64,000 bases of DNA from positions 2,281,501 to 2,345,500 of the forward strand of contig NZ_FXAM01000001.1 in the NCBI RefSeq assembly GCF_900155475.1, in the 5' to 3' direction. Source of the stretch: Methylomagnum ishizawai. GTDB lineage: Bacteria; Pseudomonadota; Gammaproteobacteria; Methylococcales; Methylococcaceae. Positions 1 through 41,593 of the stretch are shown here, piece after piece. How positions within the stretch are numbered: position 1 is the first letter of the stretch; each line of letters begins with the position of its first letter. The position numbers were made by a program, and so were the translations under genes. Below the pieces are notes generated by a model. The model did no database searches. It was not told the DNA's origin and saw only the letters and a list, made by a program, of their open reading frames with translations.

Positions 1-1564
1 CACCACCGCCGCCGCTGACGGGCCGTGCCGCCGGCACCGCGCCCGCCGCCGGAGCCACGGCGACCTTGTAATCGCGGCCATTGACCGACAGCACTTCGCC
101 GCTGCCCGCATCGACCCGGTAGACCCGGCCATTCACGGTCACGTCGAACGCGGTGGCCTGCGATGCCGTTTTTTCGGCGCTGGGCGGTGGCTCGAAGGCT
201 TCGGGCTTGCCGCGGTTTTGCAGGAATTTGAGGCCGATCTGCGGGAACAGGGCATAGGTCAGCACATCGTCGATGGCGTCCCCGGCCAGTTTGAAGCCTT
301 GTTCGGCGGCGAGCTTGTGGAGTTCCGCCGTGAGCTTGTCCATCTCGGGTTCCAGCAGGTCGGCGGGTCGGCAAACGATGGGTTCGGCCCCTTGCAGCAC
401 CCGCTCCCGCAATTCGGCGTTGACCGGGGCGGGCGTGGACCCGTATTCGCCTTTCAGGATGCCTTGGGTTTCCTTGGCGATGGATTTGTAGCGCTCGCCC
501 ATCAGGACGTTCATCACCGCCTGGGTGCCGACGATTTGGGAGGTGGGCGTCACCAGCGGGATGAAACCCAGGTCTTCGCGCACGCGGGGGATTTCTTCCA
601 GCACGGCGTCGAATTGGTCCAAAGCGCCTTGTTCCTTCAATTGGCTTTCCATGTTGGTCAACATGCCGCCCGGCACCTGGGCCACCAGGATGCGGCTATC
701 GACGCCCCTAAGGCTCCCCTCGAACTTGGCGTATTTTTTCCGCACCTCGCGGAAATAGGCGGCGATTTCTTCCAACAGCTTGAGGTTCAGGCCGGTGTCG
801 CGGTCCTGGCCTTCGAGCGCGGCGACCACGGCCTCGGTGGCACTGTGGCCGTAGGTCATGCTCATCGAGGAAATCGCGGTATCGACGTTGTCGATGCCGG
901 CTTCCGCGCATTTGAGGATGGTGGCGGTGCTTAAACCCGTGGTGGCGTGGGATTGCATGTGGATGGGCACGCTGACCGCTTGTTTCAGGCGGCCGACCAG
1001 TTCGTAGGCCACATAGGGTTTCAGCAGCCCGGCCATGTCCTTGATGGCGATGGAATGGGAACCCATGTCCTCCAGGCGCTTGGCGAGGTCCACCCACATC
1101 TCGATGGTGTGGACCGGGCTGACGGTATAGGAAATCGTGCCCTGGGCGTGCTTGCCGACGGCCAGGGTGGCGCGGATGGCCCGTTCGAAATTGCGGGGGT
1201 CGTTCATGGCGTCGAAGATGCGGAACACATCCACCCCGTTGACGGCGCAGCGTTCCACGAATTGATCGACCACGTCGTCGGCGTAATGCCGATACCCTAG
1301 GAGATTCTGGGCGCGCAGCAGCATTTGCAGCGGCGTCTTCGGCAGCGCTTGCTTGAGGGTGCGGAGGCGTTCCCAGGGGTCTTCGCCGAGATAGCGGATA
1401 CAAGCGTCGAAGGTCGCCCCGCCCCAGCTTTCCAGCGACCAAAAACCGACTTGGTCCAGTTTTCCGCAGATCGGCAACATGTCCTCGATGCGTAGGCGGG
1501 TCGCCAGCAGGGACTGGTGCGCGTCGCGCAGCACGACATCGGTGATGCCTAAGGGAGTAGCCAT
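1..1564 (-). CDS. oadA: Oxaloacetate decarboxylase alpha subunit (partial, C-terminus outside window)
   Basis: The alpha subunit carries the carboxyltransferase that moves CO2 from oxaloacetate to a biotin arm for the membrane Na+ pump. The start at 1564 follows an AAGGAG ribosome site, and 521 codons lie in the window; the family is about 600 residues. The N-terminal RDAHQS signature (residues 13-18) is the metal-binding start of the HMG-lyase-like barrel. The last residues in view are an Ala/Pro/Gly-rich linker after VNGRDYKV, which normally leads into the biotinyl domain; that domain and its MKM lysine are off the left edge. oadG lies 28 bases upstream, and oadB is expected to follow outside the window. 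A pyruvate carboxylase B subunit is the alternative, but the adjacent oadG argues against it. Confidence 0.93.
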
Positions 1565-35074: not shown

Positions 35075-35147
35075 GGCCGCGTCCCCGCCCACCGCCACCG
35101 ACCGGCGCTGGGCGGTTTTGCTCCCTCCCTCATCCACGGAGTTTTCA

Positions 35148-36029
35148 ATGACGCCCGCAACTCAAAAGCGCCCCAGCGCGGCCCCCGGCCTATGGGACGA
35201 ACTGGCCCACAAAATCCTGTCCCAGCTGTTCGCCTCCGGGCGGCCCTGGCCGGTGGTGCTGGTCGCCCTGGTCATGACCGCCCTCAACCTGTTCGCCAGC
35301 AGCCTGTTCGAGCTGACGGCCTGGCTCGACGACCGGCACGCGCTGGGCTGGATACACCTCGGCTTGGGATTCCTGGCCTTCCCGGTCCTGCTTTGCTGGC
35401 TGATCCGGGCCGCCCGCAAGGCCCGGCAACGGCTGCGGCCCGTGGTCACGGAAGAACGCCCCCAACCCGTCCGGGGACTCATCCTCTACCTCAGCGTGCT
35501 GCACGCCGACCACGCCGCCAAACTGGCCGACCCCGCACGGGAAAAGCTGGACTTGGCGGGCTTCCGCCAACGCTACGAACGCGCCAGTTGGCGGATGCCG
35601 GTGGAAGCGATAGCCCACCATGCCGGGCGGCTGGACTATGTGGTGGTCATCCCCTCGCAGGGCGCGAAGGGCAGCGCGGAACAACTGCCGCGGTTCCGGG
35701 AACTGCTGGCCGAGCTATTCCCCGCCGCCGGGTTCCGGCGCGTGGACATCGGGCAAATCCCGCCCGGCCATTCGGCGGACGGCGACTACCGGGGCGGTCT
35801 GGATTTCGAGGGGGATTCGGAACGGCTGGCGGCGGCCACCGACGACGCCTACGACTACCTGCGCGGCCATGGCCTGCAAGCCAAGGACATCCTGATCGAC
35901 ATCACCGGAGGCCAGAAAACCACCAGCATCGTCGGTTCCGCCGTCGCCCTGGCCGAGGGGCGGCGCATCCAATACGTCAGCACCCACGATTACGGTGTCA
36001 GGGTCTACGATGTGAGTTATGGGATATAG
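35148..36029 (+). CDS. Membrane-anchored CARF-domain protein (putative type III CRISPR effector)
   Basis: 293 residues from the ATG at 35148 (CGGAG ribosome site). Two membrane helices are clear at about residues 35-57 (VVLVALVMTALNLFASSLF) and 66-88 (LGWIHLGLGFLAFPVLLCWL). A basic stretch follows, then a Rossmann-type domain from about residue 108. Its motif DILIDITGGQKTTSIVGSAV (residues 247-266) is the nucleotide-site signature of CARF domains, D-x-TGG-x-K. No HEPN or nuclease domain is attached, so the membrane part is the likely effector, as in Cam1 or Csx23-type proteins that perturb the membrane on binding cyclic oligoadenylate. That action is inferred. A ring-nuclease-like gene follows in the same unit. 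Confidence 0.8.
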   Translation: MTPATQKRPSAAPGLWDELAHKILSQLFASGRPWPVVLVALVMTALNLFASSLFELTAWLDDRHALGWIHLGLGFLAFPVLLCWLIRAARKARQRLRPVVTEERPQPVRGLILYLSVLHADHAAKLADPAREKLDLAGFRQRYERASWRMPVEAIAHHAGRLDYVVVIPSQGAKGSAEQLPRFRELLAELFPAAGFRRVDIGQIPPGHSADGDYRGGLDFEGDSERLAAATDDAYDYLRGHGLQAKDILIDITGGQKTTSIVGSAVALAEGRRIQYVSTHDYGVRVYDVSYGI

Positions 36030-36071
36030 GCGACGGAAACCGGGCGGACCCGCCCCAGGAGGACACACCCC

Positions 36072-36395
36072 ATGGCCTTGATTTACGTCATCAATTCCCC
36101 GGTGCTGACCGGCTATGGCCTGTGGCGGTTCGAGGGACCGCTGGCGGAATCCGCCGCCCGCGAGCTGCTGGCCGGGGGTTTCGTGTCGGCGCTGGGCCAC
36201 GCAGGCGCGGCGCGGTTCCTGTCGGCCCGGCTGGGCCTCGGAATCCCGGTGAACCGCGTCCGGGTGGAACTACAACCGGGCGACCGGGCGCTGGTGCTGC
36301 GGTTATTGGAGCGCCTGCCGGAAAACCGGGCGCTGAGCGCCGCCGAGATGGAGGAATTGCCGTTCGAGTTGGGGTTGCTGACCCGGTTGGAATAG
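36072..36395 (+). CDS. crn2: STIV-B116/AcrIII-1/Crn2-like ring nuclease
   Basis: 107 residues of the DUF1874 family. The order VINSPVLTGYGLWRF, GGFVSALGHAGAARFLSARL, IPVNRVRVEL, GDRALVLRLLERLPENRALS and LPFELGLLTRL matches the family along its whole length. Viral members (AcrIII-1) and bacterial Crn2 degrade cyclic tetra-adenylate. The likely active His is residue 43 in LGH. The usual Thr two residues before the AA pair is Gly here. It sits 42 bases after the membrane CARF gene with an AGGAGG site, as expected for an off-switch made with its effector. A host-borne anti-CRISPR from a virus is the alternative reading. Confidence 0.82.
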   Translation: MALIYVINSPVLTGYGLWRFEGPLAESAARELLAGGFVSALGHAGAARFLSARLGLGIPVNRVRVELQPGDRALVLRLLERLPENRALSAAEMEELPFELGLLTRLE

Positions 36396-37377: not shown

Positions 37378-37506
37378 GTTAAGAGCCGCGTATTATAGGG
37401 AAACCCTTCCAAAAAGCCAACCGTTTTCGCGATGCGACTTCGGACCCCTGCCCGGACTAAACTTGCAGGGGTCCATCCGCCCGTCATCTGCCGAAGGAAA
37501 TCCCCA

Positions 37507-39705
37507 GTGAGCCCAACCATCCCAGCCCATGCCGAACCGGCCTCCTTGAAGGCGCTGTACCAAGAACTCCACGCCCTGGCCGCCCAGGGCCGCGATCAGC
37601 CCTACGACCTCGCCATCGCCGGGCGTATCGAAGCCCTGGTCGGCCACCATCTCGCCGAACTCAAGGCCAAACTGGTGCAACAGGAAAGCCAGAAACTCCT
37701 GGAGTTCGTCGCCACCATCGCCGACCTGGGTAAGCGCATCCCCATCGGCGATTTCGAGGACGAAGCCTTCCTGGGCGCGTTCGGCCACGCCTGGGGCAGC
37801 CATCTGGACCGCCACTTGCGGCATCCGGTGGAGCGCGGCTATTTCGCCAGGACGCTGGCCGACATGGCCGGGCGCTGCAAGGAAAGCGCGGGCGTGCTGG
37901 CCCGGCTGCGCCGCCAGCGCCAGGAATTGGCCTATCAGATCGCCGAGCAGGAAGCCGCGCTGGGCGGGGCCGGTTTCAAGCAGCGCCGGGAGTTGCTCAA
38001 CGCGCTGGTCGCCCTCAAAAGCCAGCAGGGCGAGGCCGAGCGCGGCATCGCCCTGGAGGAAATGAGCGCCCTGGAAATCCTGTTGCCGCCCGGCGTGGAT
38101 TACGCGGCGCTCACCGCCGATCCGCCGCCCTTGGCCTTCGTGCCGGAAAAATTCCATGCTTCCGCCGTCGCCGCGCTGTTCGCCTGGCCGGACGCGCCGC
38201 CCTACGAGGAAGTCCGCCCGCTCAACTCGATGGCCGAGCCATTCGCCCCGGAACCCGTCCCGGACCCGGTGCCGGTCGAGGAAATCGCTTTGGATGGGGT
38301 CGCCGAAGCGCCGCCGGAACCGCACGAGGAAGCGTGGTACCGGACCTTGTTCACGGAAGAGGAAACGCCGTCCGCCCCGGCTCCCGAAGCGGAACCCGTC
38401 CCGGCGGCGGTGTCCGCCGAGGCACAGGCCGTGGTCCCGCCGCCGCCCGCCGAACCCGTCCCGGAGCCGGAATCCGCCCCGCCCGCCTATGCCGAGGATT
38501 GCGAAACCGCCGTCCAGCGCTTCATCGCGGCCTATCGCGACAAATCGCCGGATTTGGGCGTGGCCATCGAGAACGTGGCTTTCCATTGGATCGACCGGGG
38601 CTATGTCAACGTGGCCTACACCACCTTGAAATCGGCCCAGTTCAGCCACTTGCCCATTCCCAGCCTGTTGGTCCCGGATTTGTTCAAGGCGGCGTATTTC
38701 GGGATGCATGTGTGGTCGCGGGAGGATGAAGCCCTCGCCACTTCCCAACGCTTGCTCAATTTCCTGTCCCCGCCCTTGATCGACGAACTCTGCGCCCGGC
38801 GGCCCGGCGGCCCGGCGGTGCCCTATTTGCTGTTCGTGGCCAGTTTCCAGCCGGCGCTGTTCGGCGGGAGCCATACCCAGGCGCCGGCCTTGGTGGAATA
38901 CGCCGGCCATGGGTTCGGGGAAGGTTTCCGCCAGCGCTTGGAGCAATTGCTGCGCTTGTTCGGCAGCGACGGTTCTCTGGGTTTGGAGGTGTTGCGGAAA
39001 CTCCCCGCCGGCGATGAGCGTAGCGCCCGTGCCCAGTTGTCGGCCCGCCTCGCCGATTGGCATGTGCGTATCCTCGACAAGCAGAACGGTTGGGGTCCGG
39101 TGCGGGCGGCCTTGGGTAATTGCCTGGCCCGCAACGAGTTCGACCGGGCCATCAAGGCCATCCAGGCTCCGGATTCCAACGATGTCGAGGGTGTGGCCGC
39201 TTTCGCCGCCAAGTACCGCGACCGCAAGGCCATCGGCGCTTTGATGGAAGCCCAGGTGGCTTCGGTGCTGTCCTCGCCCGAGCCCTTGCCCACCGAGGAG
39301 CGCAATGCCAAGTCCTGGTTCATCCTCAATATGCTCGACCTGTGCGGCATCGCCAATGATTGGCTGGCCGAGCAGCGTTTGCGGCGTGGGGCCGATCCCG
39401 CGGGCGGCGGTTTGATCGGCGGCGTGCTGAATCCTTTGGCGGCGCTGCGCGAGGAGATCGAGCGCTCGGTCACGCCCGCCGCCCCGTTCGAGCAGCGGGT
39501 GGCGGCGCGGCTCGCGGCCCAGGCCATCGGCAAGGTCCGGCTCGCCATCGAGGATGTCCAATCCAGCGTGGTGTGGAGCGCCAAGCAGACCAACGCCTGG
39601 CTCTCGCTGCCCTACGACATGATGGAGGCGGTGGGTTTCAGCGGGGACGCCGAGGGCGAGTTGGTGTGGCTGGTGGACCGGATCGGCTCGGTGCCGCCCG
39701 CTTAG
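37507..39705 (+). CDS. Large protein of unknown function next to tRNA-Leu
   Basis: 732 residues from a GTG at 37507 that follows AAGGAAAT. Residues 1-235 are helical and charged (HAWGSHLDRHLRHPVERGYFARTL). Residues about 239-332 form a Pro/Glu/Ala-rich linker. Residues 335-732 are again mostly helical (CETAVQRFIAAYRDKSPDLG, HWIDRGYVNVAYTTLKSAQF). No membrane segment, nucleotide-binding loop or metal motif is visible. I do not recognise the family. Codon use matches the chromosome, so it is not obviously foreign. Confidence 0.75.
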   Translation: MSPTIPAHAEPASLKALYQELHALAAQGRDQPYDLAIAGRIEALVGHHLAELKAKLVQQESQKLLEFVATIADLGKRIPIGDFEDEAFLGAFGHAWGSHLDRHLRHPVERGYFARTLADMAGRCKESAGVLARLRRQRQELAYQIAEQEAALGGAGFKQRRELLNALVALKSQQGEAERGIALEEMSALEILLPPGVDYAALTADPPPLAFVPEKFHASAVAALFAWPDAPPYEEVRPLNSMAEPFAPEPVPDPVPVEEIALDGVAEAPPEPHEEAWYRTLFTEEETPSAPAPEAEPVPAAVSAEAQAVVPPPPAEPVPEPESAPPAYAEDCETAVQRFIAAYRDKSPDLGVAIENVAFHWIDRGYVNVAYTTLKSAQFSHLPIPSLLVPDLFKAAYFGMHVWSREDEALATSQRLLNFLSPPLIDELCARRPGGPAVPYLLFVASFQPALFGGSHTQAPALVEYAGHGFGEGFRQRLEQLLRLFGSDGSLGLEVLRKLPAGDERSARAQLSARLADWHVRILDKQNGWGPVRAALGNCLARNEFDRAIKAIQAPDSNDVEGVAAFAAKYRDRKAIGALMEAQVASVLSSPEPLPTEERNAKSWFILNMLDLCGIANDWLAEQRLRRGADPAGGGLIGGVLNPLAALREEIERSVTPAAPFEQRVAARLAAQAIGKVRLAIEDVQSSVVWSAKQTNAWLSLPYDMMEAVGFSGDAEGELVWLVDRIGSVPPA

Positions 39706-39806: not shown

Positions 39807-40175
39807 TCAGCGCAGGTCGCGCCCGAACGGCAGCAGCGACAGCGGGATCAGCTTGATATGCTGCACGGCGAAGGGAATGCCGATGATGGTCAGGGCCAGT
39901 ATGCCCGCGCTGGTCAGGTGCGCCACCGCGATGGGCCAGCCGAACAGCAATATCCACAGCAGGTTGAAGACCACCCGCAGGACGCTGTTGGCGTCGGGCA
40001 GTTCCACCACGTCCTTGCCGAACGGCGCGAACACCGCCAAGCCCAGCTTGATCGATTGCAACCCGAAGGGAATCCCCACCACGGTCAGGCACAGGGCCAG
40101 CCCGCCCAGGAGATAGCCCAGCCCGGCGATGAAGCCGCCGAATAGCAGCCACAGCAAATTTCCCAATAAACTCAT
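39807..40175 (-). CDS. yccF: YccF-family inner membrane protein
   Basis: 122 residues with two repeats of a hydrophobic unit. GGLALCLTVVGIPFGLQSIKL (about residues 25-45) and AGILALTIIGIPFAVQHIKL (about 89-108) are the paired motifs of the DUF307/YccF family. Four membrane segments are likely. The function is unknown. The start overlaps the stop of the diguanylate cyclase gene by four bases, so the two are co-translated. Confidence 0.88.
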   Translation of the reverse strand: MSLLGNLLWLLFGGFIAGLGYLLGGLALCLTVVGIPFGLQSIKLGLAVFAPFGKDVVELPDANSVLRVVFNLLWILLFGWPIAVAHLTSAGILALTIIGIPFAVQHIKLIPLSLLPFGRDLR

Positions 40176-41593
40176 GATCTACCTCCCATCTGGGCTGGTG
40201 CCGACGCCGCCATGCGGTTGGTGTGCGCTTGGGTCCGGCCCGTCTCCGGGGTTGGCCATTCCAGGCGGACGGGGTCGGGTGCCTTGCTGTAATAGGCGAA
40301 TTGGTTGCGCCCGGCGTCCTTGGCCCGGTAGAGGGCGTTGTCGGCCATGCGGATCAATTCCTCGATATCGATGTGGTCCTCGGGATAGAGGCTGATGCCG
40401 ATGCTGGCCGAGACCGATAGCGCGTGGCCATCGATGGAATAGGGCGAATCGACCGCCACGCACAGCGCATGGCCGATTTCCGCCGCCATTCCGGGGTCGG
40501 CCAGATCGCCCAGGATGACGGCGAACTCGTCGCCGCCCAGCCGGGCCACGGTGTCGGTGCCGCGCAATTGCCGCTTGAGGCGCTGGCCCACCTCGATCAA
40601 TAGCTTGTCGCCGACGATATGGCCCAGGCTGTCGTTGATGTGCTTGAAGCGGTCGAGGTCGATGTACAGCAGGGCGAACATCCGGTTGTCGCGGCGGGCG
40701 CGGAGCAGCGCCTGCTCCAGGCGCTCCTTGAACAGGGCGCGGTTGGGCAGTTCGGTGAGGGGATCGTAGAACGCCAACCGCCGGATGGTTTCCTCCGAGT
40801 TCTTGAGTTCACTGATATCGTGGGAGACCGCCACGTAATGGGTGATGGCCCCGTCGCCGTCCTTGACCGGGGCGATGTAGAGCATCGACCAGTACAAATC
40901 GCCGTTCTTCTTGCGGTCCAGGAGTTCGCCCTGCCAGGAGCGGCCCTCCGAGAGGGTGCGCCATAAATCCTGGTAGATGGCCGGATCGGTGAAGCCGGAA
41001 CCCAGGATCGAGACCTTGTGGCCCAGGAGTTCGCGTTCCTCGTAGCCCGTGCCCTGGCAGAACGCCGGGTTGCAATATTCGATCACGCCTTGGATGTCGG
41101 TGATGATGACCATGCTGGAACTATGCGCCATCGCCAGCGACAGCGTGCGCAATTCGCATTCGGTGGCGCGGTGTTTTTCCAGGATTTCGGCCAGTTCCTG
41201 GTTGATCGCCAGCAATTGCCGGGCGCTGGGGATCGCCACCAGTTTGGGCAGCAAGGGCCAGATCAGGGCGGCGGTCGCCATCGATGCCAGGGCGGTGACG
41301 GCCTTCACCAGCCCGGACAGCCAGTAGTCCGGCACCCAGGTGGTCCAGATCGCCAGCAGGTGGGTGGTGCCGCACAGGAAGATGAACAGCCCGAACAGCC
41401 TGAGCATCCAGTCGAACTGGAGGTCGGTGCGCCGCCGCACCAAGGCCAGGATGGCGAAGGGGATCGAGTAATACGACAGGACGATCAAGCCGTCGGAGAC
41501 CACATGCAACCATAGCACGCTGGGTAGCCAGAGGTAGCAATTGCCGTGCGGCATGAAATGGGAGAAAGACAGTAATTCGGCCATATCATTCAA
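40172..41593 (-). CDS. Diguanylate cyclase with ethylene-receptor-like membrane domain and PAS
   Basis: 473 residues. Three membrane helices (about residues 21-125) carry SDGLIVLSYYSIP and IFLCGTTHLLAIW. The residues matching the copper/ethylene site of plant ETR1 (Asp34, Tyr41, Pro45, Ile71, Cys74, His78) are all present with ETR1-like spacing. A PAS domain follows (about 150-270, YCNPAFCQGTGYEERELLG). The GGDEF domain (about 290-440) has the intact site RLGGDEFAVIL, so it should make cyclic di-GMP. No EAL domain is present. The sensed ligand is inferred to be ethylene or copper. It is translationally coupled to yccF. Confidence 0.9.
   Translation of the reverse strand: MNDMAELLSFSHFMPHGNCYLWLPSVLWLHVVSDGLIVLSYYSIPFAILALVRRRTDLQFDWMLRLFGLFIFLCGTTHLLAIWTTWVPDYWLSGLVKAVTALASMATAALIWPLLPKLVAIPSARQLLAINQELAEILEKHRATECELRTLSLAMAHSSSMVIITDIQGVIEYCNPAFCQGTGYEERELLGHKVSILGSGFTDPAIYQDLWRTLSEGRSWQGELLDRKKNGDLYWSMLYIAPVKDGDGAITHYVAVSHDISELKNSEETIRRLAFYDPLTELPNRALFKERLEQALLRARRDNRMFALLYIDLDRFKHINDSLGHIVGDKLLIEVGQRLKRQLRGTDTVARLGGDEFAVILGDLADPGMAAEIGHALCVAVDSPYSIDGHALSVSASIGISLYPEDHIDIEELIRMADNALYRAKDAGRNQFAYYSKAPDPVRLEWPTPETGRTQAHTNRMAASAPAQMGGRS

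Follow-up and report, generated by a model that had tools for sequence, protein, structure and literature searches.

Ethylene receptors of the plant ETR1/ERS type, which share the membrane domain described in Pfam as ETR1_N, work through kinase-type outputs in eukaryotic signalling. In ETR1, Cu(I) is bound at D25/C65/H69 with a Kd near 1.3e-15 M, and Cu(I) alone rigidifies the receptor with an effect that reaches its C-terminal part, according to the accessible portion of the published work (PMC12643061). The accessible portion of PMC6586836 gives C65, H69, I35, P36 and I62 among the residues essential for binding ethylene and places the copper site at the dimer interface in a model; D25 is named as an essential residue in those of PMC12643061 and PMC11819568. 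Two bacterial proteins with such an ethylene-binding domain (EBD) are of particular relevance here. SynEtr1/UirS (Slr1212) from Synechocystis PCC 6803 is described, in the text available, as an ethylene binder that affects cell surface and biofilm. For AzoEtr1 from Azospirillum ethylene binding was reported as well (PMC11819568). The available text of the same source states that ethylene reduces biofilm and root colonisation in Azospirillum, that cyclic di-GMP (c-di-GMP) is lowered by ethylene treatment by a route left open, that signalling follows an inverse-agonist scheme in which ethylene turns the receptor output off, and that the effect on biofilm is opposite in Synechocystis and Azospirillum. 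In the literature covered, as far as its text was accessible, the bacterial ethylene receptors (SynEtr1, AzoEtr1 and a predicted pair from Geitlerinema) end in histidine kinases.

The window analysed here, a stretch of 64,000 nucleotides from the genome of the gammaproteobacterium Methylomagnum ishizawai, contains on the minus strand an open reading frame of 473 amino acids (40172..41593) in which an EBD is joined to a different output. Pfam searches revealed ETR1_N at amino acids 26-120 (41234..41518, minus strand; E 2e-38), a PAS domain at 161-262, or about 155-264 in a wider delimitation (40808..41113 for 161-262, minus strand; PAS_9, E 5e-20), and a GGDEF diguanylate cyclase domain at 274-431 (40301..40774, minus strand; E 4.2e-51). 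The initial annotation had read this gene as a c-di-GMP synthase whose copper site resembles that of an ethylene receptor, and at the level of sequence this reading was borne out by the profile match, seven conserved residues, 52% identity to AzoEtr1 and an intact cyclase motif. The start codon is a TTG or, equally, an ATG at codon 4, and the spacing of the residues discussed below is the same either way. The ATG of the adjacent gene for a YccF-family inner-membrane protein (39807..40175, minus strand; Pfam YccF, E 1e-33) overlaps the stop codon of the cyclase gene (ATGA), and both genes probably form a two-gene operon. Such an overlap of the cyclase stop codon with an ATG recurs in the other genome of the host's genus, where the counterpart of the cyclase is 93% identical and has the same domain architecture. 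Upstream of the cyclase gene and divergent from it lies a gene for an FGGY-family carbohydrate kinase, probably glycerol kinase. Folding of the leader RNA gave no signal (z -0.51).

Two further regions of the window were recorded. The plus-strand region 35118-36395 holds the gene for a protein of 303 amino acids, which has hydrophobic segments near its N-terminus and contains the stretch DITGGQKTTS; a gene for a STIV_B116-like protein (Pfam E 6.5e-20) comes next. We take the DITGGQKTTS stretch to recall CARF-type domains, and the two proteins may act as a pair in defence or in an ancillary role to CRISPR. For a protein of 757 amino acids at 37432-39705 (plus strand) the Pfam search yielded nothing at E 0.001. 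By position it corresponds to an open reading frame of 759 amino acids in the same-genus genome (L313:4237-6516).

The membrane domain scored 131 bits with the ETR1_N profile (PF25487; cut-off 27) and covered positions 2-96 of the 97 profile positions, and the profile matched none of 14 control genomes. For D34, Y41, P45, I71, C74 and H78 it had been proposed that they keep the spacing of their ETR1 counterparts. This is exactly the case, and I44, which corresponds to Ile35 of ETR1, is present in addition, so that all seven ethylene-binding residues are kept. Tyr32 of ETR1, the counterpart of Y41, we take to be the remaining essential residue of the plant receptor. In a search of all six frames of 1,084,385 bases, made up of the window and of loci not selected for an EBD, the exact seven-residue spacing occurred in no other gene; the two matches obtained (in the window and in L004) are one and the same gene. 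Simple hydropathy analysis revealed three hydrophobic stretches in the domain with maxima centred within 28-45, 67-78 and 101-115, and these are the predicted counterparts of the three N-terminal transmembrane helices of an ETR1-type EBD. A chance resemblance to ETR1_N was ruled out by the E-value of the profile match, the control genomes and the unique spacing of the residues.

Using the EBD as query in a tblastn search of PLSDB, 19 plasmid records were matched, and the identity to Azospirillum brasilense Sp7 was 52.1% over 117 amino acids. The corresponding Sp7 reading frame (L324:2468-4045, 525 amino acids) carries D35, C75, H79 and K98 exactly where they have been described for AzoEtr1 and is therefore AzoEtr1. 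Over the whole N-terminal stretch both proteins are 46.6% identical in 133 columns. They share the copper and ethylene residues and the order of EBD and PAS domain, and K97 of the window protein aligns with K98 of AzoEtr1 and K91 of ETR1, a position that has been linked to receptor output in the accessible part of PMC11819568. The plant ETR1/ERS receptors have all seven binding residues and the K91 equivalent in common with the window protein. In contrast, the outputs differ: AzoEtr1 ends in a histidine kinase with an adjoining response-regulator gene, whereas the window protein has the GGDEF domain in the same chain. SynEtr1/UirS likewise begins with an EBD but continues, according to the text available, with a cyanobacteriochrome and then a histidine kinase.

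The GGDEF motif of the window protein is intact at positions 353-357 and is preceded by the RxxD of an inhibitory site at 344-347; profile (PF00990) and intact motif together fit a predicted diguanylate cyclase. Neither HisKA nor HATPase was found among the Pfam matches of the protein at E<=1, and a histidine-kinase type of ethylene receptor was rejected, as the GGDEF domain stands in place of any kinase match. The nearest solved structures for the PAS domain in a PDB sequence search were PAS-A/B of MmoS from Methylococcus capsulatus (3EWK, E 4e-41) and NifL (2GJ3, E 2e-19). MmoS is a sensor in the copper regulation of the soluble methane monooxygenase, and the PAS domains of MmoS and NifL bind FAD, as stated in the accessible parts of PMC8694187 and PMC9668731. 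The flavin contacts of MmoS given there, T103, H132, N164 and R195 (PMC9668731), correspond in the alignment to T165, V194, D226 and S257 of the window PAS domain. Opposite Asp226 stands the Asn of the NRRKDG stretch in MmoS, an Asn that was identified as N164 by counting 32 residues from H132 and 31 residues to R195 in the alignment. The flavin-binding Asn (N85 in Aer, N164 in MmoS) is thus absent from the window PAS domain, which has Asp226 instead. Because V194, D226 and S257 stand at the contacts H132, N164 and R195, neither binding of FAD nor a canonical FAD redox PAS domain of the MmoS/NifL/Aer type is supported, although the domain may bind FAD all the same.

At the domain level the protein joins two known families, and the combination of ethylene receptor and c-di-GMP output would be the new element. 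An EBD-GGDEF fusion was not met in the literature searched, which was covered in part and allows no claim that the architecture is unpublished. A search of genome contigs with the whole protein was dominated by the PAS-GGDEF half, as in each of the 80 matches listed the best segment started no earlier than residue 119, and it contributed no relative of the EBD to the analysis. The ETR1_N profile was above the cut-off in 25 of 61 relatives, in 128 of the 251 genomes that sampled the host's order (defined as the order of the host genome in the database used), in 31 of 397 genomes of a phylum sample and in 13 of 360 of a class sample. Among the relatives 52 of the 53 matches above the cut-off were examined (one fragment of 103 amino acids and five matches below the cut-off were dropped). 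The 60 loci from the order sample were the new ones among those ranked best by EBD score in the matches listed; they are not a random set and give no unbiased frequency. Outside the order we examined 29 of 31 matches above the cut-off from the phylum sample, leaving out a fragment of 48 amino acids, a match of 1246 amino acids (G294) and two matches below the cut-off, together with eight further loci of the class sample, from which four matches below the cut-off were dropped, and 17 loci of an alphaproteobacterial genus.

GGDEF/EAL outputs were found at 52 of 112 EBD loci examined within the order (17/52 in the relatives and 35/60 in the score-ranked order set) and at none of 54 loci outside it (0/29 in the phylum set, 0/25 in the class set plus the alphaproteobacterial genus). 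The outputs were classed with home-made HMMs, which some kinases escape; L223, for example, is an HWE kinase by Pfam. ETR1_N together with GGDEF was confirmed by Pfam for 17/17 fusions of the relatives and 6/35 of the order set, and the other 29 rest on the home-made HMMs. A kinase ATPase domain is present at most loci outside the order. For 5/29, 4/8 and 1/17 of the phylum, class and alphaproteobacterial loci, respectively, the search gave no output domain; some of these are short frames and at least one, the L223 mentioned above, is a missed kinase. Predicted EBD fusions related to the window protein are common in the host's order, and the form with GGDEF and without EAL is confined to four of the 112 loci, namely the window gene, its counterpart, L255 and L301. 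Other proteins of the order (e.g. L171 and L172) have EBD, PAS and GGDEF in the same order as the window protein but continue into a C-terminal EAL domain. As the window protein has no EAL, it should only synthesise c-di-GMP. One genome of the order (G506) has six ETR1_N matches, among them L284, L286, L287 and L296 on C1 and L256 on C2; two of the six are neighbouring genes about 4 kb apart, of which one (L286) ends in a kinase ATPase domain. In the classing of outputs L286 had been scored on the truncated EBD of its neighbour and entered as having none; judged by its own gene it moves to the kinases, and the 35/60 for c-di-GMP stays as it is. The alphaproteobacterial genus, which contains an AMO-bearing genome, has an EBD in 14 of 39 genomes, and 16 of its 17 loci (among L316-L323 and L334-L344) end in a kinase ATPase domain, none in GGDEF/EAL. 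Ethylene-receptor-like genes may thus occur in a second, distant group of methanotrophs with a different output.

To follow the c-di-GMP output through the family, it was mapped as a label on a tree of 78 of 81 EBDs (141 columns, rooted solely at the midpoint; L190, L228 and L067 were left out). The label required five changes, four of them forced by well-supported branches, versus 15.7 with shuffled labels, and none of 500 shuffles was as low as five. A branch with support 99/88 sets the window EBD and five others, all linked to c-di-GMP and coming from two families of the order, apart from the rest; EBDs of EBD-PAS-GGDEF-EAL proteins such as L171 and L172 fall on the side of the window EBD. 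In the simplest reading, which is tentative as many forks are open with 141 columns and L152 and L157 stand on a very long branch, the ancestor of this group was an EBD-PAS-GGDEF-EAL protein and the window lineage lost the EAL domain. The metal triad D/C/H is kept in 49 of 52 c-di-GMP-linked versus 74 of 80 kinase-linked EBDs, and all seven residues in 42/52 versus 55/80. Asp was lost in three of the 52 fusions (L180, L181, L199), in one of which His was lost as well. As fusions and kinases keep the residues about equally often, the site is maintained.

The 5.48-Mb host genome contains three genes of the pMMO/AMO-A family, one of them on contig C2, and the host is probably a methanotroph of the Methylococcales. 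A locus of C2, a gene for CusA-type efflux, matched a Methylomagnum ishizawai plasmid at 93% over 28% of the query, which points weakly to Methylomagnum or a close genus. Copper is the metal of pMMO. Methane monooxygenases co-oxidise ethylene to toxic epoxyethane, and methane oxidation is inhibited by ethylene, as stated in the accessible part of PMC11507031. The copper-linked or ethylene-exposed metabolism for which a coupling of ethylene or copper to biofilm control had been suggested fits the host as far as the sequence speaks to it, on the basis of the three genes and the ethylene co-oxidation described in that source. A MEDS-domain regulator was proposed there for epoxide genes, in a main text that does not use the word 'receptor' (PMC11507031); methanotrophs may therefore also have other routes of ethylene response. 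Among the 61 relatives an AMO-family gene was detected in 21 of 25 genomes with an EBD versus 20 of 36 without (Fisher p 0.027, with kinship ignored), which hints weakly that EBDs go with pMMO. Four EBD genomes are without a detected AMO gene. Since 20 of 41 AMO-bearing relatives have no EBD, and entire families of the order lack it (f5, with AMO in 5/6 genomes, and f6, with AMO in 4/5), ethylene sensing seems to be optional and no general need of methanotrophs.

Besides the window gene, the ETR1_N profile identified three other EBD genes in the host genome. One codes for a PAS-histidine kinase of 551 amino acids, one for a hybrid kinase of 1316 amino acids that includes a receiver and an Hpt domain, and one for an EBD-PAS-GGDEF-EAL protein of 719 amino acids (G000:C1 about 1112977-1115133; L152:1978-4134; minus strand). 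The latter has GDDEF instead of GGDEF, with the EAL and DDFG motifs intact, and is therefore likely a phosphodiesterase. Two of the seven positions of its EBD are changed, with Phe and Ala at the positions of Tyr32 and Ile62. In the EBD tree a very long branch (4.19) leads to the L152 protein and to L157, its equivalent in the second genome, yet both genomes of the genus have retained the gene. The host thus probably pairs an EBD-linked synthase with an EBD-linked hydrolase.

Taken together, we assign a probability of about 0.6 to the reading that the window protein is a Cu(I)-dependent one-component ethylene receptor whose output would be the synthesis of c-di-GMP and not histidine phosphorylation. 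In the proposed mechanism C74 and H78, assisted by D34, would hold Cu(I) in the three-helix membrane domain, one ion per subunit of a putative dimer, and ethylene dissolving in the membrane would be bound by this Cu(I). The signal would then pass through the helix after TM3 to the PAS domain and on to the GGDEF domain and set the frequency at which two GGDEF subunits come together for c-di-GMP synthesis, with feedback of the product through the RxxD site. By analogy with the inverse agonism of ETR1, SynEtr1 and AzoEtr1, ethylene would switch this output off, and the predicted phenotype would be less c-di-GMP and less attachment. We lean only weakly to the assumption that ethylene lowers the output of the cyclase, because ethylene acts oppositely on biofilm in Synechocystis and Azospirillum; the protein may control biofilm in the host.

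The conserved residues may also be compatible with a ligand of Cu(I) other than ethylene, and the PAS domain may be the dominant input. The domain could report its own loading with Cu(I), and with it the copper sufficiency for pMMO, to the c-di-GMP pool, ethylene being incidental. The copper of pMMO, the three AMO-family genes of the genome and the similarity of the PAS domain to MmoS, itself part of copper regulation, would suit such a copper sensor, as would the rigidification of ETR1 by Cu(I) alone up to its C-terminal part (PMC12643061, accessible part). However, Y41, I44, P45 and I71 are kept although they are no ligands and would be needless for a bare copper site, with a Kd as reported for ETR1 (PMC12643061, accessible part) the site would hardly ever be empty, and ethylene is sensed by kinase versions of the same domain according to the available text of PMC11819568. 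We therefore consider a mere copper sensor unlikely. Another possibility is that the membrane domain senses a different pi-acceptor or hydrocarbon gas such as acetylene, propylene or carbon monoxide, or a C1 intermediate. Methanotrophs are exposed to several gases of this kind, and other small unsaturated ligands can, in principle, bind to Cu(I) sites, but the set of residues and the 52% identity indicate the same pocket as in a proven ethylene receptor and no sequence feature was seen that marks another ligand, so that we rate this possibility lower still.

Least probable in our view is that the EBD now serves only as membrane anchor and dimeriser and that the NifL/MmoS-like PAS domain is the working sensor, for redox or another signal. 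Its position between EBD and GGDEF and its resemblance to FAD redox sensors would agree with this, as would the loss of two of the seven residues in the sister protein L152 of the same genome. All seven residues are, however, intact in the window protein and in its same-genus counterpart (L153), and with Asp226, Val194 and Ser257 at flavin contacts of MmoS there is no support for an FAD sensor either. Sensing of ethylene through Cu(I) remains the reading we prefer.

As ethylene is a co-substrate of methane monooxygenase and is made into toxic epoxyethane, it would be a danger cue for a methanotroph, besides being a cue for roots and soil. We tentatively propose, as a possibility that we hold at less than even odds, that in gammaproteobacterial methanotrophs ethylene receptors became linked directly to c-di-GMP enzymes more than once. 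Ethylene, which is a gas of plants and soil and a poison co-oxidised by methane monooxygenase, would then be turned into a decision to stay or to leave within one protein; in the present host the synthase and the EBD-PAS-GGDEF-EAL protein with its degenerate GGDEF, the likely hydrolase, would act as an antagonistic ethylene-linked pair. If the receptor reading is correct, the link from ethylene to c-di-GMP, which is open in Azospirillum, would become directly testable in one purified protein, and an ethylene-responsive c-di-GMP module would be at hand for engineering. It would also provide a molecular entry to the reported inhibition of soil methane oxidation by ethylene, which is relevant to methane emissions, and ethylene, a reported poison of methane oxidisers, may directly steer their lifestyle.
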